Both the position numbers and the translations under genes were made by a program. Below, in pieces: positions 5,027-30,118 of a stretch of DNA of 38,518 nt. The notes beneath the pieces were generated by a model. That model worked only from the letters and a program-made list of their open reading frames with translations, was not told the DNA's origin and searched no databases. The stretch's first letter is position 1. Every line of letters begins with the position of its first letter. Source of the DNA: Hydrogenothermaceae bacterium (GTDB lineage Bacteria > Aquificota > Aquificia > Aquificales > Hydrogenothermaceae); contig JAOABH010000007.1 in NCBI GenBank assembly GCA_026418455.1, positions 81,554 through 120,071 of the forward strand, in the 5' to 3' direction.

Positions 5027-5054
5027 TTTTTCAATAATGGTTAAGGAGGTAGAT

Positions 5055-5963
5055 ATGGCGATTGTTTATTTTGAGAACAGATTTGTTGAGGAAGAAGAAG
5101 CAAAGATAAGTATAAAAACAAACTCATTTCACTATGGAACTGCCGTATTTGAAGGTATAAGAGCTTACTATAACAGGGAAGAAGACACTATGTATGGATT
5201 ATTCTTTAAGGAACATTACCAGAGATTATTTCAAAATATGAGAATTTTAAACATGGAAATAGAAGAAACAGTAGATGAACTCGTAGATATAACTGCTGAA
5301 CTTGTAAAAAAGAATAATCATAAAGAAGATGTTTATATAAGACCTATTGTGTATTTTGCAGACCTTGCTATAGGTCCGAAGTTGATAGGTTATAAGGCAA
5401 AGATAGCTATATATACATTACCATTGGGTGATTATATAGACACAAACAAAGGTATAAAGGCAAAAGTTTCTTCTTGGACAAGATTAAATGACAATATGAT
5501 CCCACCAAGATTGAAAGTAACAGGTGCCTATGTTAACAGTGCAATGGCTAAGACAGAAGCTCTTTTAAACGGTGCCGATGAAGCCATAGTTTTAAATCAG
5601 AAAGGATATGTGGCAGAAGGTAGTGCAGAAAATATCTTTATTGTAAGGAATGGGAAATTGATTACTCCTCCCGTCAGCGAAGATATACTTGAAGGTATAA
5701 CAAGAAATGCCGTTATGGATATAGCTAAGGATATTGGGATACCAGTAATAGAGAGAAGTATATCAAGGACAGAGCTTTATGTGGCAGATGAAGTATTTTT
5801 CTGTGGAACAGGAGCTCAGATATCTCCTGTTGTGGAAATAGACCAGAAGAAGATAGGAAACGGAGAAGTTGGACCTATCACTAAAAAAATAAAAGATATA
5901 TACTTTGACGCGGTTAGAGGGAAAATAGAAAAATACAGACATTGGGTAATACCGATAAAGTGA
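5055..5963 (+). CDS. ilvE: branched-chain amino acid aminotransferase
   Basis: PLP-dependent fold-type IV transaminase for the last step of valine, leucine and isoleucine synthesis. The core motifs are HYGTAVFEGIRAY near the N-terminus, RPIVYFADL, the PLP lysine in PPRLKVTGAYVNS (K154 from this start), YVAEGSAENIF and DILEGITRNAV. The ATG at 5037 has the ribosome binding site (AAGGAGGT, 5043-5050) inside its own reading frame, so the ATG at 5055 is the real start, giving 302 residues beginning MAIVYFENR. Its stop overlaps the next gene (GTGA). Confidence 0.92.
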   Translation: MAIVYFENRFVEEEEAKISIKTNSFHYGTAVFEGIRAYYNREEDTMYGLFFKEHYQRLFQNMRILNMEIEETVDELVDITAELVKKNNHKEDVYIRPIVYFADLAIGPKLIGYKAKIAIYTLPLGDYIDTNKGIKAKVSSWTRLNDNMIPPRLKVTGAYVNSAMAKTEALLNGADEAIVLNQKGYVAEGSAENIFIVRNGKLITPPVSEDILEGITRNAVMDIAKDIGIPVIERSISRTELYVADEVFFCGTGAQISPVVEIDQKKIGNGEVGPITKKIKDIYFDAVRGKIEKYRHWVIPIK

Positions 5964-6589
5964 TTTTAGATGAGTTAAAGAAAGATTTAAATAGAAAATT
6001 TGGTTTATCAGATATCTACGATGAAGGCTCTACCTCAGGTAGAGTCCTATATTTTGATATAGGTTATGGTGAAAAATTTGTACTATTCACTCTTCCGATA
6101 GATAAAGATTTTGATTTATCTCTTTTGAAATACAGTATGCCTTTGGAGGTTTTAAAAGAATCTGTTAGAAGGTTTATAGAAATTAAAGCTCCTACAGGCT
6201 ACAGGATCAGGTTTTTAATCTCTTTTGATAAAGAAGATAGATATAATCCTGTGATTTCTCATATATCAAAGATAGGTAAGGATAAAATTTTGATACTTGT
6301 AAATCTTGAAGAAACGGGACTGGGAAATGAGAAAATAGTTATAAATGGTTTGGATTATATGTCTCTTTTAAAGATTGATAAGATTTTGGATGAAAATAAA
6401 TTTAGAATTGGTAAAATTTTTAGGAAGGATGGTATATCTTTAGCATATAAAACAGATATAAAGGTTTTGGAATTTGTATCATTTCCGAATGAATTTAAGG
6501 ATGTATTGAAAAGGGAATTTTTTGATAAAAAAAGGGTAGACTTTATAGTTATGTTTATATTTACTTTTCTTAAGAAGGTTTTTAGATGA
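5960..6589 (+). CDS. unknown protein, possible catalytically dead M28-peptidase-like fold with hydrophobic C-terminal tail
   Basis: I do not recognise this 209-residue protein with certainty. The start is taken as GTG at 5960, overlapping the ilvE stop (GTGA); a TTG at 5942 is also possible. The order of segments resembles an M28 aminopeptidase fold: GYGEKFVLFTLPIDKD where M28 has the zinc HxD strand, then APTGYRIRFLISFDKED where M28 has the paired glutamates, then ILILVNLEETGLGNEKIVING. The zinc ligands themselves are mostly absent, so if the fold is right the protein is not a peptidase. The C-terminus (FIVMFIFTFL between basic residues) is short and hydrophobic, possibly a tail anchor. It overlaps the next gene by ATGA, so the two proteins probably work together. 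Confidence 0.55.
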   Translation: MILDELKKDLNRKFGLSDIYDEGSTSGRVLYFDIGYGEKFVLFTLPIDKDFDLSLLKYSMPLEVLKESVRRFIEIKAPTGYRIRFLISFDKEDRYNPVISHISKIGKDKILILVNLEETGLGNEKIVINGLDYMSLLKIDKILDENKFRIGKIFRKDGISLAYKTDIKVLEFVSFPNEFKDVLKREFFDKKRVDFIVMFIFTFLKKVFR

Positions 6590-7419
6590 GGAATTATTTT
6601 GGGTTTTTGATAAGGTTTATAATATCGGCTACCGTTATCACAACGGCTATATTATATCAGTATGATTTTAAAGTTCCGTTAATTATTTTAAGTGTTATAT
6701 ATTTTTTTCAGTATATTTTACTTTACCCTTTTTTATCTGATCGGTTATTAAAACATATTGTTTATATTGTTGATTTTCTGTTTATAGGTTATGTTGTGTT
6801 TGTAACAGATAATGTTTATCTGTCTCTTTTTTCGGTTATGCTTGTTTTGAGTGTTACTACAAAGATAGATATGATTATCCTCTTACTTTTTATGTTGTCA
6901 ATTTTTGGATTATCACTGTATAAATATGGATTTTATGAATTTACTCTTCTGTTTCTGTATGTGGGATTTTTGGCATCTATATTTGAATTTTTCCGGAAAA
7001 AATTAGAGTTTGAAAGCAGATATAATAAACTTTTAGAACTATCAAAGAATATATACAGAGACAACCTTATCTGTAGTGATAAGTTGGATTTTTTTCAGAG
7101 ATATTATAATGTAAATTTAGCTATAAGAAAATTAAAAGAAAAAGATATAAAGCCGGAAGAGTTTGTAGAGATACTATATAAAAATCTAAATTGTGATACG
7201 GTAATAATTTTGGATAAAACTGATAAATCTTATAGCTGTAAAGGGTTTTACTGTTATGATGATATTTTAAATTTTATAATTAATGGAGATATAGTTGGTT
7301 TAAAAAATAGATTAAATGTAAAATTTGTGGTTTTAAAAGATATGGGAGAGTTGTCTTTAATACTTATCTATAAAGATTATATAAGAGTAGATAAAGAACT
7401 ACTTGAGATTATAGTTTGA
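6586..7419 (+). CDS. unknown membrane protein with GAF-like cytoplasmic domain
   Basis: A 277-residue protein. The first 140 or so residues form about five hydrophobic helices (around 7-25, 30-48, 57-77, 83-105 and 113-130), like the membrane sensor part of signalling proteins. A short coiled linker (EFFRKKLEFESRYNKLLELSKNIY) leads to a C-terminal alpha/beta region with DTVIILDKTDKSY, compatible with a small or truncated GAF domain. No kinase, GGDEF or other output domain follows. It starts inside the stop of the preceding gene (ATGA). Its 3' end overlaps the convergent dnaA gene by 11 bases. Function unknown. Confidence 0.7.
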   Translation: MRNYFGFLIRFIISATVITTAILYQYDFKVPLIILSVIYFFQYILLYPFLSDRLLKHIVYIVDFLFIGYVVFVTDNVYLSLFSVMLVLSVTTKIDMIILLLFMLSIFGLSLYKYGFYEFTLLFLYVGFLASIFEFFRKKLEFESRYNKLLELSKNIYRDNLICSDKLDFFQRYYNVNLAIRKLKEKDIKPEEFVEILYKNLNCDTVIILDKTDKSYSCKGFYCYDDILNFIINGDIVGLKNRLNVKFVVLKDMGELSLILIYKDYIRVDKELLEIIV

Positions 7420-8758
7420 GTAATTTATCTTTCAAAAATTCAATTACTAAAGAAAACTTCCTATCTTTCTCCATCTCTTCTTTTACTTTCTCTATTGCAT
7501 TTATAATAGTTGTATGGTCTTTTTTCTTAAAAGCTCTTGATATAGTCTGGAGAGACTCATCTGTAAGCTCTCTTGATAGATACATTGCGACCTGTCTTGC
7601 CGTTATAACTTTTTTCTTTCTTGAATTTCCTAAAAGTTCACTTACATTTACATTAAAATGATTTGCAACTTCTTGTTGTATTTTTTCAACAGTAATTGGT
7701 TGTATATTTTTTATCTCTATGCTATCTTTAAGTATATTTCTTGCATTTTCGAGGGTTATACTTTTTCCCATAATTTCATAGTAAGCTTTTAACTGTTTTA
7801 GTGAGCCTTCAAGTTCTCTTACAGAACTTTCAAAAGTTTTAGCCAAGAACAGTATAACATCCTTTGGTAAGGATATACCGATATCCTTTGCTTTTTTCAT
7901 AATGATACCTACTTTCGTTTCCACATCTGGTTTTGTTATTTCAGTTATAAGTCCACTGGCAAATCTACTTGTTAATCTTCTTTCAATTCCTTCAAGCTTT
8001 GAAGGTGGTTGGTCTGAAGAGAGTACAATCTGTTTTCCTAAGGTGTACAGCACATTGAATATATGGTAAAACTCTATCTGTGTCCTCTCTTTACCTATCA
8101 GAAATTGCATATCATCTATAAGTAGAAGATCTGTATCTATATACTTTTTTCTAAAATCTAAAATTTTTCCCCTCTGTATGTAGGCAAAAAGTTCAGAGGT
8201 AAATGTGTCTGCTGTAGTGTAGAGTATTTTACTCGTAGGATTTTTCTTTAACATCTGGTATGCAGTAGCGTGTAATAGGTGTGTTTTCCCAAGTCCAACA
8301 TCTCCATATATAAAAAGTGGATTGAACACTTTCCCTGGATTCTCAACTACAGATAAGCAGGCTGTATATGCTATTTTATTACAGTTTCCTATTACGAGAT
8401 TTTCAAATGTAAATTTTGGGTTTAGTGTAAGATAGTGGTGATAATGTTCCTCTTCTTTTTTCTTAGAGGATCTGTTTGATGTTTTTTTACTATACTCTTC
8501 CTGTTGGGATACAATATGTATCTTGGTCTTTTTCCCGAAAATATTCTGGGCAGTATCTTCGATTATCTGAGCGACTTCTGATTCAAGCCAATCTTTAAAT
8601 ACTTTATCCGGAGCATATATATATAGAATCCCATCGTTGTAGTATATATTTTCAATAGAGTTTAGTATTGCCATAGACGAAGGGTCTACCTTGTTTTTTA
8701 TGAGAGAGAGAACACTTCTCCACATTTTACTTTCTGCAATATTTTTACCAAAATCCAA
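7409..8758 (-). CDS. dnaA: chromosomal replication initiator DnaA
   Basis: AAA+ initiator that binds DnaA boxes and opens oriC. Domain I spans about residues 10-80 (KMWRSVLSLI...FKDWLESEV). A lysine-rich linker follows. The AAA+ domain has Walker A GDVGLGKT (about 152-159), Walker B LLLIDDMQF (about 211-219) and the arginine-bearing RRLTSRFASGL. Domain IV ends with the DNA-binding signature KKDHTTIINAI. The AAGGAGGG site (8766-8773) is seven bases from a TTG at 8758, so that TTG is preferred over the TTG at 8776, which overlaps the site. This gives 449 residues. It is not next to dnaN here. Confidence 0.95.
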   Translation of the reverse strand: MDFGKNIAESKMWRSVLSLIKNKVDPSSMAILNSIENIYYNDGILYIYAPDKVFKDWLESEVAQIIEDTAQNIFGKKTKIHIVSQQEEYSKKTSNRSSKKKEEEHYHHYLTLNPKFTFENLVIGNCNKIAYTACLSVVENPGKVFNPLFIYGDVGLGKTHLLHATAYQMLKKNPTSKILYTTADTFTSELFAYIQRGKILDFRKKYIDTDLLLIDDMQFLIGKERTQIEFYHIFNVLYTLGKQIVLSSDQPPSKLEGIERRLTSRFASGLITEITKPDVETKVGIIMKKAKDIGISLPKDVILFLAKTFESSVRELEGSLKQLKAYYEIMGKSITLENARNILKDSIEIKNIQPITVEKIQQEVANHFNVNVSELLGNSRKKKVITARQVAMYLSRELTDESLQTISRAFKKKDHTTIINAIEKVKEEMEKDRKFSLVIEFLKDKLLKL

Positions 8759-8789
8759 GGTTTCTCCCTCCTTCAATTAAGGGATAAAG

Positions 8790-12782: not shown

Positions 12783-13796
12783 CTACTTTTCTGAAACCTC
12801 ATTGTAATTTAAAATATCCATCTCATCACCTTTCATAGCAAGAGCATATATCTTGTTTCTTGTAAGATATGAAACAATATCTTCTGGCATGTAAAGAGTT
12901 GAAAATATAGGTATAAGTTTTTTATCCTTATACTCTGGAAAGTAATCCCAAAACTCTCTACTCTTCACAAACTCCACAAACTCCTTTGCATATTCTGGTC
13001 TTGGATTTGCTTTTGTTTCATTAAGAAGTACAACATCATCACATACAAGTATAAAATCAAACTCCTTTCTTTTACTTCTATCTGCAAAATGTCTCTTTTT
13101 AATCCTTATACCGTCAAATATAACATCAACACAACCAAAATATTTTTTGGCTATCGTTTCTATATTTGGGGCTACTATATCTTCAACCAAAGTTCCTAAT
13201 CTTAGAACCATCTCTTCCCACTTTTTCCTATCTTCTCTTTTTTGTTGTTCAAACTTTCTATCCCATTCCTGTTGAGATTTTTTAAACTCTTCTTCCCGTT
13301 GCTGTTTTTCTCTTTCAAACTTTTCATTCCATTCTTTTCTTTCTCTTTCAAATTTTTCGTTCCACTCCTGACGGTCCTTTTCTCTTTTTTCTTCGGCCTC
13401 TTTCATACGTTTCTCCCACTCTTGACGATCTTTTTCTCTTTTTTCCTCGGCCTCCTTCATACGTTTCTCCCATTCTTGACGATCTCTTTCAAACTTTTCG
13501 TTCCATTCTTTCTTTTCCCTCTCAAACTTCTCGTTCCATTCTTGCTTTTCCCTTTCAAACTTTTCGCGCCATTCCTGTTTCTCTTTTTCAAATTTTGCAT
13601 TCCATTCTTGCTTTTCTCTCTCAAACCTTTCATTCCATTCTTTCTTTTCTCTTTCAAATTTCTCATTCCACTCTTGGCGGTCCTTTTCTCTTTGGATTTC
13701 AGATTCTTTTATACTTTTATAAAGTTCTCTAACCAATTCAAGAAGCTTATCTGCTGTTTCTTCAAGACTTTCCACTCTTTCTTCTATATAAGCCAT
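12783..13796 (-). CDS. coiled-coil repeat protein with C-terminal PD-(D/E)XK nuclease-like domain (DUF3782-like)
   Basis: A 337-residue protein. Residues about 35-195 are a long charged coiled coil built of 11-residue repeats (EREKQEWNEKF and variants), interrupted by two exact-length 18-residue units (EWEKRMKEAEEKREKDRQ). The C-terminal 130 residues form an alpha/beta domain with a PD-(D/E)XK-like core: D247 in EFDFIL, then E260-x-K262 in LLNETKAN. This matches a group of thermophile proteins (DUF3782 and relatives) suspected to be nucleases; the cellular role is unknown. The ATG at 13796 is eight bases from GGAGG (13805-13809), so it is preferred over an upstream TTG at 13811. Confidence 0.8.
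   Translation of the reverse strand: MAYIEERVESLEETADKLLELVRELYKSIKESEIQREKDRQEWNEKFEREKKEWNERFEREKQEWNAKFEKEKQEWREKFEREKQEWNEKFEREKKEWNEKFERDRQEWEKRMKEAEEKREKDRQEWEKRMKEAEEKREKDRQEWNEKFERERKEWNEKFEREKQQREEEFKKSQQEWDRKFEQQKREDRKKWEEMVLRLGTLVEDIVAPNIETIAKKYFGCVDVIFDGIRIKKRHFADRSKRKEFDFILVCDDVVLLNETKANPRPEYAKEFVEFVKSREFWDYFPEYKDKKLIPIFSTLYMPEDIVSYLTRNKIYALAMKGDEMDILNYNEVSEK
13305..13680. repeat. in-gene 33-base and 54-base tandem repeats
   Basis: The coiled-coil part of the nuclease gene is made of 33-base units encoding 11 residues. They are centred on a recurring (minus strand) GAATGGAA-like core, with two adjacent 54-base units at 13381-13434 and 13435-13488 that differ at few positions. 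Such near-identical tandem units are prone to expansion and contraction in steps that keep the reading frame. Confidence 0.85.
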
Positions 13797-13832
13797 TATC
13801 AGAACCTCCAAAGCTTTCGGTTTGGAATAGAA

Positions 13833-15969: not shown

Positions 15970-18900
15970 GTGAATGATATGGAGATTAAATTTTCTATCT
16001 GTCCACATGATACTGCAAAAGGGTTAGAAAAGTGGAAAATCTTTGTAGAAAAATTAGAGAAGAAACTTGGATTAAATGTAGATTTTCAGCCTTTTAGTTC
16101 TTTTGCTGAAGAAGATATTAGGTTAAATCAAGAATTTTTCCATATATATTACAGTTCTCCTTCTAAGCAGGTTGAACTTTTAGAAAAAGGATATCTTCCT
16201 GTGGCTAAGTTTAAAGGTCAGGTAGATAGTCTATTTTTAATAACAAAAAATGGAATTCCTAAAGAAGGAGAAATAAAAGTAGCTTTACCATTTTTAAAAC
16301 ACGTTGTATATGGAATTTTGGATTTAGATATAAGTAGAGTAAGGTTGATATTTACAAAAGATTTCGTGGAAGTTTTCCAACTGGTAAAAGAGGGTAAGGT
16401 AGATGTTGGTGTAATGTATAATGAAACCTGGGATCAGATAGAAAACAGAGAAGATGTAAAGATAATTGAAGATTCAAAGTTAGATACTCACCGTATATTT
16501 ATGGTACATAATTCAATCTATGATAAAGTAAAACCGGTTCTACTCTCTTTTGATGAAGTCGAGGAGGCTACCTTAGATGATGTTCAAAAGGCAAGGAATC
16601 TTATAGAAAAGTTTGAAAAGTTTTCTATAATCTGGAAAGATGAAAGTATAGTAAGATCTATAAAAGATTCTCCTTTTATAGGAGTTATGATTTATAGGGA
16701 TAAAATTTTGTATATTAATGATTTTGTTTCTAAAATCTCAGGTTTTTCAAAAGAAGAACTTATAGGAATGTCTATATTTGATCTGGTGGATAGAGTTAAA
16801 GATGAAAATATAAAACAGACTATAAAAGAAAATATTCAAAAGAGATTGGAAGGAAAACATGGTATATATACATATGTTGATCTACCGTTTTTAACTAAAA
16901 ATGAAGAAATTGTTTATCTATATATTTATTCTGACACTATACTTTATTTTGGAGAGTATGCAGGAATAGTATTTGTAATTGATGATACCAAGAGGAAAAA
17001 ATTAGAAAATATAAATAATCTACTTAAAGAAGTAAATGATGCAATTATACATTCAACATTTGAGGAAGAGCTATTTGAAAAGATTGCTGATGCATTAGTA
17101 AATAAAATTGGATTAAAACTTGTATGGATAGGAAAGGAAAAACCAGATACAAAAGAGATTATACCCACATTTTATAAAGGAGAGGCTATAGATTATTTAA
17201 AAGAAATAAAAATCTCATCAAGGCAAGATATACCAGAAGGACAAGGTATTACAGGAAGAGCATACAGAGAAAATAAAATATATATAAATCCAGATAGTTA
17301 CTCTTCTGATATTATGAGTCCCTGGAGAGAAAAATTATTAAAATACGAACTACTCTCTTCTATAGCTATTCCTATAACCAAGGGAAGTAAAGTAGAGTAT
17401 GTTTTAACTTTGTATAGTTCGGAGAAAAATTTCTTTAAAGAAGAGTTTTTAGATATATTGTATGAGTTGAAAAAAGATATAGAATTCACTCTGGATAAGA
17501 TTGAGAGTATTAAAAAATCCATAATTATTGGAAATGCTATAAATTATTCAAAATCTTGGGTAATTGTAACTGATGAAGAAGGAAATATTACATTTATAAA
17601 TGATTTTGTGTCTGAAATTTCTGGATATTCTAAGGGAGAGCTTATAGGTAAGAATATGAGGATTTTTAAATCTGGACATCATACTCCGGAATTTTACACG
17701 GAGCTATGGAGAAAGATAAGATCTGGAGAACCATTTATGGCAATTTTTGTTAATAGATCAAAAGATGGTATTACATTTACATTGGAACAGTCTATTTATC
17801 CTGTAAAGCTTCCGGGAGGCATTGTTAGATATGTTTCCATAGGAAGAGATATAACGAAAGAGCAACAGATATCATCGGAGCTAACTAAACTGAAATTCTA
17901 TGATGTTTTAACAGGACTTTACAATATAAATGGGTTTAGTTTTAGGTGTAATGAGGAAATCAAGGGAGAAGATAATATATGTCTTATACTTGTTGATATA
18001 GCTAATTTCACTGATATAAATAAGATATATGGTTTTAAAGTTGGTGATGAAGTGTTGAGACTTATAGCTGAAAAATTGAGAAATAGTTTTAGAGAAGGAG
18101 ATATAATCGGTAGAGTTGGTAGTGATGAGTTCGGAATATTGCTTAGAGGCATTAAGAACTTAGGTAGTATAACAGTTATTCTGGAAAAACTAAAGAACTC
18201 TCTGAAATCAAAGTTAGTTATAGAAGGAATAGATATACATATATCAGTAAATGGTGGGATATCTATATATCCACAGGATGGGAAAACATTTGAAGAGTTA
18301 TATGCCAAAGCTTCTCTTGCCATTAAAGAGGCTAAAAAAGAAGGTAGTGGAGTTATCAGATTTTATAATAAAGATTTAGAAGAAACTACGGAAAGAGTAA
18401 AATTTGCTGAAAATTTGGTGTTAAAAGCTTTTGAGAAAAATCTCTTTTTATTTTTCTTACAACCTTACTTTAAAGCAGAAGACTTAACATTGGCAGGTTT
18501 TGAAGCACTTATAAGAATAAAAGACGAAGATGGAAAGATATATACACCAAATTTCTTTATTGATTATCTTGAAAATAGTGAGTATATCAGAGAGTTTGAA
18601 AGTTGGGCTGTGAGAGAAGCAATTAGAATATCAAGAAAATTTAATATTCCAATATCACTAAATATCTCTGCTAAATCCTTTTCTGATGACACTTTTATCT
18701 CCAAACTGATAGATATACCGGAAGATGTGTCTATTACCTGTGAGGTAACGGAGAGAGTTTTCTCCAAGGAGTTTGAAAAAATCAAGAAATTTATTGAATC
18801 TATTACTAACAAGAAAAATATAAAGATAGCTATAGATGATTTTGGAACCGGTTACTCTTCTCTAAACTACATAAAAGAGCTTCCTGCTGATATTTTAAAG

Positions 18901-19128
18901 GTAGATATGTCGTTTGTTAGGACGATGTTAGATAACGAGAGAGATAAGGCATTGGTAAAAACGATAATAGATATTGCTAAAAATTTAGGTTTAGAGTCCT
19001 TAGCAGAGGGAGTGGAAAACCACGAGCAGTATGAGATGTTGAAAAATATGGGTTGCGATTATGTCCAAGGTTTTCTTTTTGGTAAACCTATGCCAGAGGA
19101 AGAAGCAGAGAAACTTATGAAATCTTAG
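15970..19128 (+). CDS. multidomain c-di-GMP regulator: PhnD-like / PAS / GAF / PAS / GGDEF / EAL
   Basis: A 1052-residue protein without signal peptide or membrane helix, so probably cytosolic. Residues 1-215 resemble PhnD-type periplasmic binding proteins (FSICPHDTAKGLEKWKIFVE...DVGVMYNETW). PAS about 225-345, GAF about 350-510, PAS/PAC about 520-640, GGDEF about 645-800 and EAL about 810-1050 follow. The diguanylate cyclase motif is altered to GSDEF (717-721), though the inhibitory RxxD (708-711) is intact. The EAL domain looks active: EAL at 845-847, LNISA, TCEVTER, DDFGTG (956-961), K977 and AEGVE (1012-1016). Net phosphodiesterase activity, tuned by ligand or redox input, is the likeliest role. 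No Shine-Dalgarno is seen; ATG 15979 is an alternative start. The 3' end overlaps the MNT gene. Confidence 0.88.
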   Translation: MNDMEIKFSICPHDTAKGLEKWKIFVEKLEKKLGLNVDFQPFSSFAEEDIRLNQEFFHIYYSSPSKQVELLEKGYLPVAKFKGQVDSLFLITKNGIPKEGEIKVALPFLKHVVYGILDLDISRVRLIFTKDFVEVFQLVKEGKVDVGVMYNETWDQIENREDVKIIEDSKLDTHRIFMVHNSIYDKVKPVLLSFDEVEEATLDDVQKARNLIEKFEKFSIIWKDESIVRSIKDSPFIGVMIYRDKILYINDFVSKISGFSKEELIGMSIFDLVDRVKDENIKQTIKENIQKRLEGKHGIYTYVDLPFLTKNEEIVYLYIYSDTILYFGEYAGIVFVIDDTKRKKLENINNLLKEVNDAIIHSTFEEELFEKIADALVNKIGLKLVWIGKEKPDTKEIIPTFYKGEAIDYLKEIKISSRQDIPEGQGITGRAYRENKIYINPDSYSSDIMSPWREKLLKYELLSSIAIPITKGSKVEYVLTLYSSEKNFFKEEFLDILYELKKDIEFTLDKIESIKKSIIIGNAINYSKSWVIVTDEEGNITFINDFVSEISGYSKGELIGKNMRIFKSGHHTPEFYTELWRKIRSGEPFMAIFVNRSKDGITFTLEQSIYPVKLPGGIVRYVSIGRDITKEQQISSELTKLKFYDVLTGLYNINGFSFRCNEEIKGEDNICLILVDIANFTDINKIYGFKVGDEVLRLIAEKLRNSFREGDIIGRVGSDEFGILLRGIKNLGSITVILEKLKNSLKSKLVIEGIDIHISVNGGISIYPQDGKTFEELYAKASLAIKEAKKEGSGVIRFYNKDLEETTERVKFAENLVLKAFEKNLFLFFLQPYFKAEDLTLAGFEALIRIKDEDGKIYTPNFFIDYLENSEYIREFESWAVREAIRISRKFNIPISLNISAKSFSDDTFISKLIDIPEDVSITCEVTERVFSKEFEKIKKFIESITNKKNIKIAIDDFGTGYSSLNYIKELPADILKVDMSFVRTMLDNERDKALVKTIIDIAKNLGLESLAEGVENHEQYEMLKNMGCDYVQGFLFGKPMPEEEAEKLMKS

Positions 19129-19448
19129 TATATTCTTATACCAGTAGTTTTGGCTTCTAAGGATATGAAATCTTCACTGTCAAGAGGTCTGACTATAAGG
19201 TCAATTTTTTGCTCTCCTATCTCTTTTTCAAGATTTACAAGAAAATTAAGCTTTTTATTAAGTATGTCTTTATAATTAGCGATTTCAAGGTAGATATCTA
19301 TATCTCCACCTTTTTTAAAAAGGTCGGCTCTAGATCCAAAAATCCAAACTCTAACATCTTCTCCGAATATCTCTTTTGCAAGCTTAACAATTAAATCTAT
19401 TACTTCGGAAGATAATCTAACTTTGTTGTAAATTTCTTTCGCTAACAT
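19125..19448 (-). CDS. MntA-like minimal nucleotidyltransferase antitoxin
   Basis: A 107-residue protein of the MNT (DNA polymerase beta-like) family. The NTP-binding motif is FGSRADLFKKGGDIDIYL: G38-S39 and the metal-binding D49-x-D51, with one residue fewer than usual between GS and DxD. A third acidic position is in KIDLIV. In type VII toxin-antitoxin systems MntA AMPylates a tyrosine of the HEPN toxin HepT and so neutralises it. The gene overlaps the upstream HEPN gene by 32 bases, the standard toxin-first arrangement. Its ribosome binding site is weak (AAAGA). It converges with the GGDEF/EAL gene with a 4-base overlap. Confidence 0.85.
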   Translation of the reverse strand: MLAKEIYNKVRLSSEVIDLIVKLAKEIFGEDVRVWIFGSRADLFKKGGDIDIYLEIANYKDILNKKLNFLVNLEKEIGEQKIDLIVRPLDSEDFISLEAKTTGIRIY

Positions 19449-19878
19449 AATCTTTTATCCTTTTGAATATATCTTTTATCTTCTCTTGATTTTCCAGAGC
19501 CATTTTAATCGCTTCCACCTTTAAATCTGTTTCCCACGGGTATATATGAACAAACTCGTTTCTTAATTTTCTAATAGTATTCCAGTAATCTCCACTTTCT
19601 AAAAATCCGTATTTTTCCAATGTGTTAAGTATATCAATAAAAGAGACTTCTGTGTAAAATTTTCCAGTAAGCATCTCAAATATTATAGGAAAAAGTTTTT
19701 CTCCCATAGCACTTTGAAGTTTTATAAACCGGAAAATATATGCATCAAGTATCATTAGATGTTCGTAATCAAATGTATCCATTTTATCTATTTCTAAATT
19801 ATTTATCTTTTCGGCTTCATAATCTAAAAGCTCTAAATGTTTTTCTATTTCTTGAATCACAATTTCTACTCTTTTCAT
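19417..19878 (-). CDS. HepT-like HEPN ribonuclease toxin
   Basis: A 153-residue helical HEPN protein. The RNase motif RxxxxH is present as R106-N-E-F-V-H111, followed by Y113 in HIYPW. This RNxxxHxY form is the DUF86/HepT signature, and the tyrosine is the residue AMPylated by MntA in studied pairs. It is somewhat longer than typical DUF86 proteins (about 110-140). The preceding helices (DYEHLMILDAYIFRFIKLQ) match the HEPN core. The promoter places transcription start at about the ATG, and there is no ribosome binding site, so the mRNA may be leaderless. Toxicity is inferred from the family. Confidence 0.85.
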   Translation of the reverse strand: MKRVEIVIQEIEKHLELLDYEAEKINNLEIDKMDTFDYEHLMILDAYIFRFIKLQSAMGEKLFPIIFEMLTGKFYTEVSFIDILNTLEKYGFLESGDYWNTIRKLRNEFVHIYPWETDLKVEAIKMALENQEKIKDIFKRIKDYVSERNLQQS

Positions 19879-25886: not shown

Positions 25887-27620
25887 TTGAAGTCAGATTT
25901 TAGCTGGGCTTTAGAGTATATAGATAAAGCTCCGGAGAGTCCGGGAGTGTATATTTTCAGAAACAAAGATAAGTTTTTATACATAGGTAAAGCGGTAAAT
26001 ATTAAAAATAGGTTGAGAGGACATTACAATCTTATAAAAGATGACCCAAAAGAGAAAAAGATTTTTAGTGAAAGTAAATCAATAGAGTGGATAGTAACAA
26101 AATCCGAATACGAAGCTTTTATCCTTGAAAATGAGATGATAAAACTTCACAAACCTAAGTATAATGTTATGCTTAAATCTGGAAGTGGATATCCTATGAT
26201 AGTTATAACAGATGAGGAGTATCCTACCATTAAAATAAGCCGAAAATTTGGAGAGATTAAAGGAGAGTATTTTGGACCATTTTTACCTGCAAAAAATGCA
26301 AGAGCCTTAAAGGATTTGATTCATAAACTGTTTAAACTTAGAACATGTGACCCTTTACCTGTGAGAAATATGGTATGTTTTGATTACCACCTTGGACTAT
26401 GTAGTGGACCATGTGCAAATAAGATAACTAAGAAAGATTACCAAAGTGACGCTCAAGTTGCCAAAGCTTTTCTATCAGGAAATGTAAAGAATGTGATTTA
26501 TAAACTGTATGACAGATTAAAAGAGTATTCAGAGAAACTTATGTTTGAAAAGGCTGCCGTAGTTAGAGATCAGATAAAAGCTCTTGAGACTGTTGTAAAA
26601 AAACAGGAAGTTGTAGGACTTGATATAGAAGAGGCAGATGTTTTCTATATAACTTCAACGGATATATACCTGATAGTAGTCCGGGGGCATACCATAGTAG
26701 GCAAAGAGAAGCTTAATATATCAGACAGAGTAAATAATGAATTGGTTAATGTCGTTATGGAGTATTATGATAGAGGAAACTACATACCACAGACTATAAT
26801 GGTAAATAAAACTATAGATGAAGAAGAATTTCTTATAAGATGGTTAAAAGAGTTTAAAAAGAGAGATGTGAATCTCAGTTGTACATTACCTAAACAGATT
26901 CTAAACTTTATAGAGAGAAATATATCTGATGTAGACTTGACTGTTGTTTCTAAAATTTTTGAGGATGTTTTTGGCTTTAAATTACCAAGTAGGATAGAGT
27001 GTTTCGACATATCACATCTGCAGGGAGTTTTTACTGTAGGGTCTTGTGTTGTTTGGGAAAATGGTAGTATGAATAAGAGAGAGTATAGGAGATACAGAGT
27101 TAAAACCGTAGATTATATAGATGATTACAGCTCATTGAGGGAAGTTTTAACAAGGAGATTCTCAAAATATAAGGATTTACCTAATCCTCCGGAAGTTGTT
27201 TTGATAGATGGAGGAAAAGGACAGCTTTCTATAGGTGTTGAGGTTAAAAATAAGTTAGGATTAGCAGATCTAAAAATTTTTTCAATAGCAAAGAAGGAAG
27301 AGATTATCTTTACAGAGGATGGTCAAGAGGTTCATTTATTTGATTACCAGCCACTTTTGAAACTCTTTACATCTATAAGAGATGAAGCCCACAGATTTGC
27401 TTTAAGTTATAACAGAAAATTGAGAGAAAAACACACCTTAAAATCTGTCCTTGATGATATAAAAGGTATAGGAGAGAAAAGGAAAGAACTACTTTATAGG
27501 AGTTATAAAACTGTTGATAATATATTAAAAGCTTCTGATGAAGAGCTAAATAAACTCGGAATACCTGTAAAACTTTCTCAGAAGATAAAGCGTTATCTAA
27601 AAGGAGAGAAAGTTGATTAA
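25887..27620 (+). CDS. uvrC: excinuclease ABC subunit C
   Basis: Makes the two incisions in nucleotide excision repair. The 577 residues have the N-terminal GIY-YIG nuclease (SPGVYIFRNKDKFLYIGKAVNIKNRL), a cysteine-containing region (LRTCDPLP...CSGPCANKIT), the UVR motif (SEKLMFEKAAVVRDQIKALE), the RNase H-like second nuclease (RIECFDISHLQG, VLIDGGKGQL) and C-terminal helix-hairpin-helix motifs (LDDIKGIGEKRKELL). The TTG start is six bases after AAGAGG. It overlaps the next gene by 8 bases. Confidence 0.95.
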   Translation: MKSDFSWALEYIDKAPESPGVYIFRNKDKFLYIGKAVNIKNRLRGHYNLIKDDPKEKKIFSESKSIEWIVTKSEYEAFILENEMIKLHKPKYNVMLKSGSGYPMIVITDEEYPTIKISRKFGEIKGEYFGPFLPAKNARALKDLIHKLFKLRTCDPLPVRNMVCFDYHLGLCSGPCANKITKKDYQSDAQVAKAFLSGNVKNVIYKLYDRLKEYSEKLMFEKAAVVRDQIKALETVVKKQEVVGLDIEEADVFYITSTDIYLIVVRGHTIVGKEKLNISDRVNNELVNVVMEYYDRGNYIPQTIMVNKTIDEEEFLIRWLKEFKKRDVNLSCTLPKQILNFIERNISDVDLTVVSKIFEDVFGFKLPSRIECFDISHLQGVFTVGSCVVWENGSMNKREYRRYRVKTVDYIDDYSSLREVLTRRFSKYKDLPNPPEVVLIDGGKGQLSIGVEVKNKLGLADLKIFSIAKKEEIIFTEDGQEVHLFDYQPLLKLFTSIRDEAHRFALSYNRKLREKHTLKSVLDDIKGIGEKRKELLYRSYKTVDNILKASDEELNKLGIPVKLSQKIKRYLKGEKVD

Positions 27621-28161
27621 GAAGTTAGTTTTTGGATTTTTATCGCTTTTTATGATATTAACGAAGAGCTACGGAGAAGAGGTTGTAATAATAGGAGACA
27701 GTTTGACCGTAGGTAGTCAGAAGTATATTAAATACTTCATTCCTAAAGCTGTTATAGATGCAAAGGTTGGAAGGAAGTTCCAAGAGGTTATGGATATAAT
27801 AAAAAATCTTGAAATTAATGGAAATTTAAAAGACATTGTTGTTATAAGTCTTGCTACAAACGGTGAGATATCTTTACAGGAACTTGTTTATGTAGTTGAC
27901 TATCTATCAGAGAAAGGTAAAAAGGTTATCCTCGTGAATACGAAAGTTCCAAGAAGATGGGAGGATATAAATAACTATAATATCTATCTTGCTAAAGCTT
28001 TAAGACCTCATATAGAGGTTGTTGATTGGAAAAGGATTAGTGATTATTACTGTAAGACATATCAATGTTTTAGAAGTGATGGATACCATCTTACAGATGT
28101 TGGAAGTTATATATATAGCTATGTTATTTACTACTATATAAAAAATATTGGTGTAAACTGA
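27613..28161 (+). CDS. exported SGNH/GDSL hydrolase-like protein
   Basis: A 182-residue protein with a signal peptide (IKKLVFGFLSLFMILTKSYG) and one SGNH domain. Visible blocks: I, VVIIGDSLTVGS with the nucleophile serine; II, the glycine in DAKVGR; III, ATNG with the asparagine; V, SDGYHLTDVG with the catalytic D-x-x-H. It is clearly related to the C-terminal domain of the next gene (shared IDAKVGR, NTKVPRRW versus NAPVPWK). It probably acts in the periplasm on acetylated glycan or peptidoglycan. The TTG start lies inside the uvrC end, four bases after GGAGAG. It precedes the acyltransferase by one base. Confidence 0.82.
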   Translation: MIKKLVFGFLSLFMILTKSYGEEVVIIGDSLTVGSQKYIKYFIPKAVIDAKVGRKFQEVMDIIKNLEINGNLKDIVVISLATNGEISLQELVYVVDYLSEKGKKVILVNTKVPRRWEDINNYNIYLAKALRPHIEVVDWKRISDYYCKTYQCFRSDGYHLTDVGSYIYSYVIYYYIKNIGVN

Positions 28162-28162
28162 T

Positions 28163-30118
28163 ATGGATTATATAAAAGGTCTTGATGGGTTTAGGGGCAT
28201 ACTTGTTTTAGTTATTGCTGTTTTCCATACATTTACGGTTTTTTATCCTAATTATCTACTTTACTTTCCCGGTGGATTTTTGGCTGTTGAGTCTTTCTTT
28301 GTTCTATCTGGATTTTTAATAACGAGGACTCTTATAAAAACTTTTGAAAAAGAAGAGAACAGATTTACCGCCTTTTTAATATATTTAAAAAGAAGATTCT
28401 TAAGGATATTCCCAGCTCTATTTTTTATGATAACTATATTATATAGTATTCAAAAAGTTTTGAACATTAATATCTCAAAATATTTTGAAGAGGAATCTCT
28501 GTTTGGGCTATCTTTTAGTTATAACTTCTATCTTATATTTAAGGAAATTCCTTACTTTGAAAGATTTGAGGATGTTAAACTTTTACTCCATCTATGGTCT
28601 CTATCTATAGAGGTTCAGCTTTATCTTTTAGTAGGTTTTATACTTTTGATTTCTTCATTTTTAGGAAGTTTTAGTAAAGCTTTTAAATTTACTGTCTTTT
28701 CTATCTTAACAATCGGCTCTATAGCTGTAAACTTTTTTTATTTTAACATCCTTGATGTAGATATAAACAAAATTTACTTTGCTACGGAAAGTAGAAGTTT
28801 TGGTTTTTTTATAGGTGGGATTTTAGGTCTGTATGAGGACAAAATCAGAGGTATATTTGGAGAGCTTTTTGGATATTTAACTGGATTTTTAGGTTTTTCT
28901 GGACTTATAGCTACATTTTTCTTATTCAGTTATTACACAGATTGGTTTTATCCTTTTGGATTTTTGGTTGCCGACTTGCTAACTGTATCTATCATTATAG
29001 GATTTTTAAACTCTGAGTATATCAAAATATCTATGGGTATATTTGACAAATTTGGTGAGAGGTCTTACTCTTTTTACCTGTGGCATTACCCTATTTTTTC
29101 TATAATAAATAGCTTATATGGGGTTAATCCTCTGTTTATTTTTATGGCTTATTTATTAACTGTGTCTATCTCTGATCTAAGCTACCAGCTTATAGAAAAA
29201 CCTTTCAGAAGGTTGGAGTTTGGTATAAAACCTATTCCTCTCTTTTTATCTTCTACGGCTTTTATAGTAATATTTACCTCATTTTTTGGTTTATCAAATA
29301 CTCAGAAAATCATACTACCTCAGATGGATATATCAAAGACAGTCCAAGAGAAAAAAGTTGAGAATAATCAGATAGGCGAAACTGTGAGTGTTGTCAATTT
29401 AGATGAAGATACAAAAGAAACTCCAGAGTATATTAAAGAGATTAAATATGATAGGACAGTTGACGTAGTAGGAAAGAGAGCTATTATTATAGGAGATTCT
29501 GTTTTACTTGGAGCATCAAGCTATATTAGAAAAATCATACCTACTGCAAAGATAGATGCAAAAGTAGGAAGACAGGGGGTAGAAATTCCATCTCTTATAG
29601 AGAGTTATAAAGAAGATATAGAGAAAAGTGATGTAGTAGTTTTTCATATAGGGACTAACGGTTATATTAAACAAAGTTTACTTGAAGAGATTGTCAACAA
29701 AATAGGAAAAGATAAAAAGATATACTTTATAACAGTAAATGCTCCGGTTCCGTGGAAGGAAAAAGTTAATCAAAATATCAGAAGTTTATCAAAATATAGA
29801 AATGTGTCAGTTATAGAGTGGGATAAAGTAGCTGATGATCAGCTATTGGCAAAAGATAAAATTCATCTTACTGGAAAAGGTATTGTTAAATACAGTAAAC
29901 TGATTGCAACTACACTTGGAGTTGATAGTAATGTTGTGTATTCAAAATTAGGCAAAATTTCAGTTAACTCTTCTGATTTATCTAAAGTTGATGAAAATAA
30001 GGATCCTGAAGGTAAAACTACTAAAGATGAAGAGAATAGCAATGATATCAATTCTAAGAGAGATGAGAACCAAATTATAGCGGAAGATATTTTAAAAGCT
30101 ATAAATGAAACTCACTGA
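28163..30118 (+). CDS. OatA/OafA-like O-acyltransferase with C-terminal SGNH domain
   Basis: A 651-residue membrane protein. Residues 1 to about 380 are an Acyltransferase_3 domain of about ten transmembrane helices, with DGFRGI at the start, the catalytic H22 in VFHTF and WSLSIEVQLYL. A linker follows (about 395-435). The periplasmic SGNH domain (about 438-595) has GDS (S446), GTNG and DKIHLTGKG. An Asn/Asp/Lys-rich tail (about 605-651) ends it. In OatA the membrane domain passes acetyl groups to the SGNH domain, which O-acetylates peptidoglycan MurNAc; an O-antigen substrate is the alternative. It converges with ftsI with a 7-base overlap. Confidence 0.88.
   Translation: MDYIKGLDGFRGILVLVIAVFHTFTVFYPNYLLYFPGGFLAVESFFVLSGFLITRTLIKTFEKEENRFTAFLIYLKRRFLRIFPALFFMITILYSIQKVLNINISKYFEEESLFGLSFSYNFYLIFKEIPYFERFEDVKLLLHLWSLSIEVQLYLLVGFILLISSFLGSFSKAFKFTVFSILTIGSIAVNFFYFNILDVDINKIYFATESRSFGFFIGGILGLYEDKIRGIFGELFGYLTGFLGFSGLIATFFLFSYYTDWFYPFGFLVADLLTVSIIIGFLNSEYIKISMGIFDKFGERSYSFYLWHYPIFSIINSLYGVNPLFIFMAYLLTVSISDLSYQLIEKPFRRLEFGIKPIPLFLSSTAFIVIFTSFFGLSNTQKIILPQMDISKTVQEKKVENNQIGETVSVVNLDEDTKETPEYIKEIKYDRTVDVVGKRAIIIGDSVLLGASSYIRKIIPTAKIDAKVGRQGVEIPSLIESYKEDIEKSDVVVFHIGTNGYIKQSLLEEIVNKIGKDKKIYFITVNAPVPWKEKVNQNIRSLSKYRNVSVIEWDKVADDQLLAKDKIHLTGKGIVKYSKLIATTLGVDSNVVYSKLGKISVNSSDLSKVDENKDPEGKTTKDEENSNDINSKRDENQIIAEDILKAINETH

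Follow-up and report, generated by a model that had tools for sequence, protein, structure and literature searches.

A gene of M28 peptidase ancestry behind ilvE in the Aquificales with repeated loss of catalytic residues, and a putative membrane partner in one family

The DNA analyzed here, termed the window, was a stretch of 38,518 nucleotides in which a branched-chain aminotransferase gene was followed on the same strand by two further genes, designated A and B. The features of this locus were as follows.

5037 to 5963, plus strand: ilvE, branched-chain aminotransferase (NF005146, E 5.4e-120; TIGR01122, E 1e-112)
5960 to 5963, plus strand: GTGA, overlap of the A start with the ilvE stop (TGA, 5961-5963), read from the sequence
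5960 to 6589, plus strand: gene A, pseudo-M28 peptidase that has lost its PA domain (orthologs, fold of an ortholog, profile-profile match)
6053 to 6079, plus strand: FDIGYGEKF of A, from the residue table (D39, G41 and G43 in the numbering of the 215-aa form)
6317 to 6337, plus strand: GLGNEKI of A, at the former DxxGW zinc-ligand loop, a signature of the dead clade of the window's family
6586 to 6589, plus strand: ATGA, overlap of the B start with the A stop (TGA, 6587-6589), read from the sequence
6586 to 7419, plus strand: gene B, membrane protein with a GAF-like domain (AlphaFold model, hydropathy, VIA matches)
7237 to 7254, plus strand: CKGFYC, a Cys pair of the form C-x(3-8)-C within the GAF-like domain of B
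7409 to 8776, minus strand: dnaA, convergent neighbor of B, outside the unit (TIGR00362, E 2e-146)

The initial annotation had described the ilvE/A and A/B junctions as four-base overlaps, and both were exact in the sequence. Translation of A yielded 209 aa from the GTG at 5960 or 215 aa from an alternative in-frame TTG at 5942. The start at 5960 was favored because a GTG, ATG or TTG at the −4 nt position was the first available A start in 18 of the 36 loci of the window's family in which ilvE and A are joined. The gene downstream of B varied between genera, and dnaA was therefore not regarded as part of the unit. A search of Rfam at the gathering score returned tRNAs only and thus gave no curated leader or riboswitch upstream of ilvE.

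Families are numbered below. The window's own family, f1, is by inference the Hydrogenothermaceae; named relatives came from Persephonella, Hydrogenothermaceae and Aquificota MAGs. Families f2 (presumably the Aquificaceae) and f3 are the remaining families of the window's order, the Aquificales, and f4 and f5 lie outside the order. The window's genus is g1, and g9 is its sister genus. Searches that started from the window protein detected A in 37 of 112 genomes from the order; a profile search detected it in 89 of 136 genomes of the phylum, with no f4 or f5 genome among the 89.

The relationship of A to M28 peptidases was examined by profile and structural comparisons. The window protein had no Pfam or NCBIfam match above the cut-off, PF04389 included, this model appeared in only 1 of 21 A relatives at an E value of 0.036, and a PDB sequence search with the A profile gave no match at an E value of ≤1. 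Matches of A or B to DUF6198, DUF6057 and DUF6702 (E 0.004 to 0.014) were taken as noise. The fold was computed on a long ortholog, L066, with which window A shares 34% identity (AlphaFold pLDDT 90.6, pTM 0.88). In a Foldseek search this model matched PA-containing M28 aminopeptidases, with 2ek8 at an E value of 5.5e-16; 122 chains lay at ≤0.001. On re-ranking by VIA, the human transferrin receptor came first (Z 22.0, rmsd 3.8, 325 residues aligned), practically tied with PaAP, BSAP and 2ek8 at a Z of ∼21, and 1amp followed at 17.5. In profile-profile comparisons against intact M28 orthologs from f2 and f3, the long f1 forms matched seven such proteins with a probability of 99.3 and an E value of 1.4e-20, and four short forms from g1 and g9 matched with a probability of 78.7 and an E value of 1.7e-5. 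The suggestion that A is an M28 homolog whose zinc ligands were lost was thus upheld by the M28-plus-PA fold of the ortholog, by the profile match and by the residue replacements described below. The short hydrophobic tail that had been singled out in A corresponded to the helix with which the M28 fold ends (residues 316 to 332 of the L066 model) and not to a separate anchor.

The f2 and f3 orthologs, where complete, were 352 to 387 aa long and lay directly behind ilvE. Six of them matched PF04389 at E values of 4e-20 to 2e-36, five being intact and one, L138, half-dead; the PA model PF02225 was above the cut-off in three of the six. In most f1 genera A measured 329 to 343 aa, with 369 aa in G084 and 278 to 300 aa in g2, and the long f1 forms carried an additional N-terminal half that is missing from window A. 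The PA domain was present in these long relatives and absent from A in g1 (2/2 genomes) and g9 (7/7 genomes), where forms of 192 to 215 aa were found. As g1 groups with g9 on the ilvE tree with a support of 99, a single loss of this domain suffices. A second M28 protein might have taken over the activity of A; M28 proteins of 286 to 289 aa were present in a number of f1 genomes, but the sole PF04389 match in the window's genome was a partial one, over positions 11 to 68, to another frame of 366 aa.

The state of the active site was scored from six residues, namely the His of AHxD, the Asp of the second motif, the Glu-Glu pair, the Asp of the NxD motif and the His of RHT, with roles as in the enzymes of S. 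griseus and V. proteolyticus; alignments to solved M28 chains showed most of these positions. Window A has P, K, E, E and D at the ligand places of H, D, E, D and H and a Lys in place of the catalytic base; the one Glu retained at a ligand place may be an accident of alignment. The full set (H, D, E, E, D, H) was found in none of the 39 f1 loci, a few of which were incomplete or split, and in 39 of the 64 loci of f2 and f3 (33/58 and 6/6, respectively). The other 25 comprised 2 loci cut by a contig edge and 23 broken copies, distributed over g14 (5/5), g16 (13/13), g13 (3/5), a single g17 locus and g18 (1/6). In g16 the catalytic base was Arg, Gly or Cys in all 13 copies. The g16 proteins, which include L138, were only half-dead, having the first His in 11 of 13 and the ligand Glu in 12 of 13, and could serve as natural intermediates for assays. 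Zinc ligands and the catalytic Glu have been lost throughout the window's family, and in the sister family several lineages have lost them too.

A minimum of five changes between the intact and dead states was obtained both on a tree of A from which the catalytic columns were excluded (39 intact and 60 dead rows) and on an ilvE tree (37 intact and 57 dead rows), these being quick trees with long branches and the counts being blind to loss versus gain. The f2 and f3 rows alone still gave five changes on the A tree. Two sequences were left out of the counts, G060 (204 aa, where its contig stops) and G024 (whose contig does not reach the last ligand); with G060 kept, the A tree gave six changes. 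Since the intact residue set is that of the M28 family, the direction of change was inferred to be loss. On the A tree f1 joined g14 of f2, a grouping that may reflect long-branch attraction, and an ilvE set thinned to 57 rows did not reject a topology that places f1 and g14 on the same side (p-AU 0.586). The two groups may thus share one loss of catalysis.

Conservation of gene order was then compared across the order. Of the 103 A loci, 97 had ilvE as the gene immediately upstream (36/39 in f1, 55/58 in f2 and 6/6 in f3), and the two genes overlapped in 84 (25, 55 and 4 loci, respectively). Behind ilvE in f4 and f5, no A gene was present in the four readable loci; a fifth, L211, ended too early. 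The six exceptions within the order were G014, with no ilvE match; G020, at a contig edge; G050, with ilvE and A on different contigs; G066, also at a contig edge, with the A-B pair on another contig than ilvE; and G067 and G068, in which A and B lie beside a divergent gene that resembles aldo/keto reductases by eye and ilvE is on another contig, both assemblies having 7% contamination. A linkage of ilvE and A that spans the order is a new observation, and the A orthologs there are mostly intact M28 proteins in the sister families. Literature searches among open-licence papers listed none whose title or abstract dealt with the A-B pair or with ilvE and M28.

The pairing of A with B, in contrast, was confined to f1. 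In all 36 f1 loci in which both genes were readable they were adjacent, with an overlap in 28, and the pair of the initial annotation is therefore a conserved one. Neither of the two contrary outcomes foreseen there, unrelated folds or genes never paired elsewhere, came about. The remaining three f1 A loci (G070, G083 and G089) reach a contig end, and in G083 a fragment of B adjoins A at the edge. None of the 64 f2 and f3 loci had B beside A, though A was dead in 23 of them, and a dead A therefore does not need B. In f1, B occupies the position usually held in f2 by a LolA-like gene, which lay behind A in 39 of 58 f2 loci (12/15 in g12, 13/13 in g16 and 5/5 in g14) and in none of the six loci each of g11, g18 and f3.

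These distributions bear on what the partner of A might be. One alternative is that the conserved partner is IlvE, with A, whether intact or dead, stabilizing or regulating the aminotransferase and B being a separate protein that rides at the end of the transcript. The order-wide, mostly overlapping ilvE-A arrangement and the restriction of B to one family are what this alternative would produce. However, A and B adjoined each other without exception, and they stayed together away from ilvE in two genomes and probably a third (G067 and G068, and by contig G066). With ilvE not seen next to A in 3 of 39 f1 loci, an obligate link to IlvE was disfavored, and we consider this alternative rather unlikely.

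A second alternative is that the overlaps only secure expression from a shared transcript, the three proteins having unrelated jobs. These genomes are small and gene overlaps in them are common, and the LolA-type gene that stands in place of B in f2 indicates that the end position is exchangeable. This reading was nevertheless judged unlikely, as ilvE, A and B stay together while the genes that flank them differ between genera, and as G067 and G068 have the A-B pair without ilvE. The separation of ilvE from A and B in part of g2, together with the location of B at the LolA place, favored a working pair over mere co-transcription. Overall, these comparisons suggested that A and B probably cooperate in binding or sensing, without enzymatic activity; judging from gene order, they may also be in physical contact and may be linked to branched-chain amino acids.

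Motifs outside the lost catalytic set were examined for signs of a retained function. The two Gly of a GxG motif (FDIGYGEKF in the window) were kept in both intact and dead orthologs, and one Arg was also common to both forms. At the former zinc-ligand loop, GxGNEK was conserved in 37 f1 rows (0.89 and 0.95 for the two Gly and 0.78 for each of N, E and K). This motif and the shared GxG and Arg are the trace expected of a putative binding role that A has kept. High conservation of GxGNEK, two Arg and an FPxD motif in the dead clade could also indicate that A remains enzymatically active, using a different metal or a newly formed active site. This seems very unlikely, given that f1 has changed at five ligand positions and at the catalytic base and that g16 and g14 of f2 lost their residues in other ways, with no common replacement.

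Selection on A was estimated from dN/dS ratios. Thirteen pairs of dead A genes had values of 0.078 to 0.158, five of the pairs retained for A having a dS of >1 and the pair G000/G078 having been dropped for saturated dS. Four intact A pairs had values of 0.046 to 0.069, ilvE had values of 0.022 to 0.085 and ten B pairs had values of 0 to 0.174. Dead copies of A are thus kept under purifying selection, which indicates that A probably has a conserved non-catalytic role. The fast divergence of A, the loss of the PA domain in g1 and g9 and a frame split by stops into two in G082 (L022; a sequencing error or fresh decay) might suggest a decaying remnant on its way out, but the presence of A in 39 of 41 f1 genomes, nearly always as an open frame, and these low ratios make this exceedingly improbable.

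Gene B was examined with an AlphaFold model of the window protein (pLDDT 84.8, pTM 0.52). Hydrophobic helices extended to about residue 136, a helix ran on to residue 184 as a long coil and a small alpha/beta domain followed, of which residues 190 to 277 are GAF-like. The initial annotation had estimated about five helices; the model has six hydrophobic helices, one of them short, and the sixth extends into a 66-residue helix (119 to 184). The GAF-like assignment of the end was at most moderately supported, as VIA gave matches with a Z of 8 to 9 but Foldseek gave none at an E value of ≤0.001. In the VIA comparisons, the CodY GAF domain aligned over 105 to 110 residues (Z 8.1 to 9.2, rmsd 2.7 to 3.0), phytochrome domains scored about equally (Z ∼8 to 9) and a Nostoc response regulator reached a Z of 9.5. 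ImcA headed the VIA list (Z 12.7, rmsd 8.1), but this match and those to adenylyl cyclase membrane regions were taken as helix-bundle matches. Window B had no Pfam or NCBIfam match above the cut-off, and PF01590, the Pfam GAF model, was found in 1 of 13 B members at an E value of 0.0044. A PDB sequence search with the B profile gave only coil and helix matches (best E 0.0033), and a comparison of that profile with an alignment that itself contains B sequences was excluded as circular. As had been proposed, B has no output domain: the protein ends with the GAF-like domain, and no domain of the histidine kinase or diguanylate cyclase type was found in Pfam or NCBIfam. Of 37 B sequences, 31 have a C-x(3-8)-C pair within their GAF-like portion and 6 do not.

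Four B-like membrane proteins were encoded in f2 beside a TusA-type gene (L136:4022-5492, L144:3903-5385, L145:4959-6444 and L150:4176-5633) and matched the B profile at E values of 2e-8 to 1e-12 (hmmsearch). They have a similar length and membrane-coil plan to B; unlike B, they lie at another locus, lack the Cys pair and have a shorter last domain. The L136 neighbor, the one in which the TusA label was tested, had a TusA domain plus a Se/S-carrier domain in Pfam, which suggests a sulfur-trafficking context for this f2 branch.

For A itself, computation established the M28 fold (on the long ortholog), the constancy of the locus, the loss of zinc ligands and the catalytic Glu, and purifying selection. 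The interpretation that we favor, and to which we give somewhat better than even chances, is that A is a pseudoenzyme derived from a PA-M28 aminopeptidase that became fixed behind ilvE, that it has a non-catalytic role and that in f1 it works with the membrane protein B. Under this interpretation, A would have kept an older non-catalytic job: its active-site face, now reshaped and carrying the conserved GxGNEK, would bind a small ligand, peptide or protein. In the window's family it would act together with B. The B protein would sit in the membrane with its coil and GAF-like domain facing the cytoplasm, and A might dock at this cytoplasmic part as a binding or output subunit, the tight gene overlap leading to matched amounts of the two. 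The least certain step is that the unit may read or control branched-chain amino acid status through IlvE. A bolder version, which we hold to be fairly improbable, is that catalysis was never the main part of the essential role of the ilvE-linked M28 protein, which would instead regulate branched-chain amino acid status by binding a ligand. The peptidase chemistry would then have been dropped in several lineages, and the Hydrogenothermaceae would have joined the protein to a membrane GAF-like sensor, giving a receptor of two proteins with a dead peptidase as output in place of the usual kinase or cyclase.

Known systems offer partial parallels. The PA-M28 aminopeptidases, such as 2ek8 (Aneurinibacillus AM-1), BSAP/YwaD (6hc6) and PaAP, have the same two-domain fold as the long A ortholog, whereas in window A the PA domain is missing, as are the catalytic Glu and the set of zinc ligands. 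The ectodomain of the transferrin receptor, a dead PA-M28 protein and the top structural match of L066 alongside the M28 aminopeptidases tied with it, retains the fold as a binding body without catalysis. Nicastrin is another dead M28 relative. Both are animal ectodomains with a further helical domain, whereas A is bacterial and is paired with a separate membrane gene. For B, the parallel is the GAF domain of CodY, a branched-chain amino acid sensor of Firmicutes (PMC5314169). The likeness lies in the alignment of the GAF-like end and in the location of B in a unit that adjoins ilvE; B differs from CodY in having membrane helices instead of a DNA-binding domain, and the resemblance is tied with that to phytochrome domains. 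M28 had 0 mentions in passages of a review of pseudopeptidases (PMC11266112).

The interest of the locus is raised by its order-wide conservation with repeated loss of catalysis, the membrane partner being putative. Inferences of a change from enzyme to pseudoenzyme usually rest on a single event each. At this syntenic locus, orthologs whose catalytic set is intact, partly lost or wholly lost occur side by side, quick trees require no fewer than five changes of state, and selection persists. What a peptidase does besides cleave can thus be tested with natural pairs. The favored interpretation would also give a partner to a membrane protein family of deep-branching thermophiles.

Several other genes in the window were noted. 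The gene at 15970-19128 encodes 1052 aa with a phosphonate-binding-like N terminus followed by PAS, GAF, PAS, GGDEF and EAL domains. At 19125-19878, a nucleotidyltransferase gene (Pfam) overlaps a 153-aa gene in a layout like that of HEPN-MNT toxin-antitoxin systems, and the 153-aa product, which had no Pfam match for HEPN, would be the putative HEPN member. A membrane protein encoded at 28163-30118 is presumably of the acyltransferase type with an SGNH-like C terminus, and the adjoining gene at 27613-28161 is assumed to encode a free-standing SGNH-like protein. A 342-aa protein encoded at 12783-13811, with no Pfam match at an E value of ≤0.001, contains an extended stretch of EKQEWNEKFER-type repeats, and its C-terminal region presumably resembles a nuclease domain.
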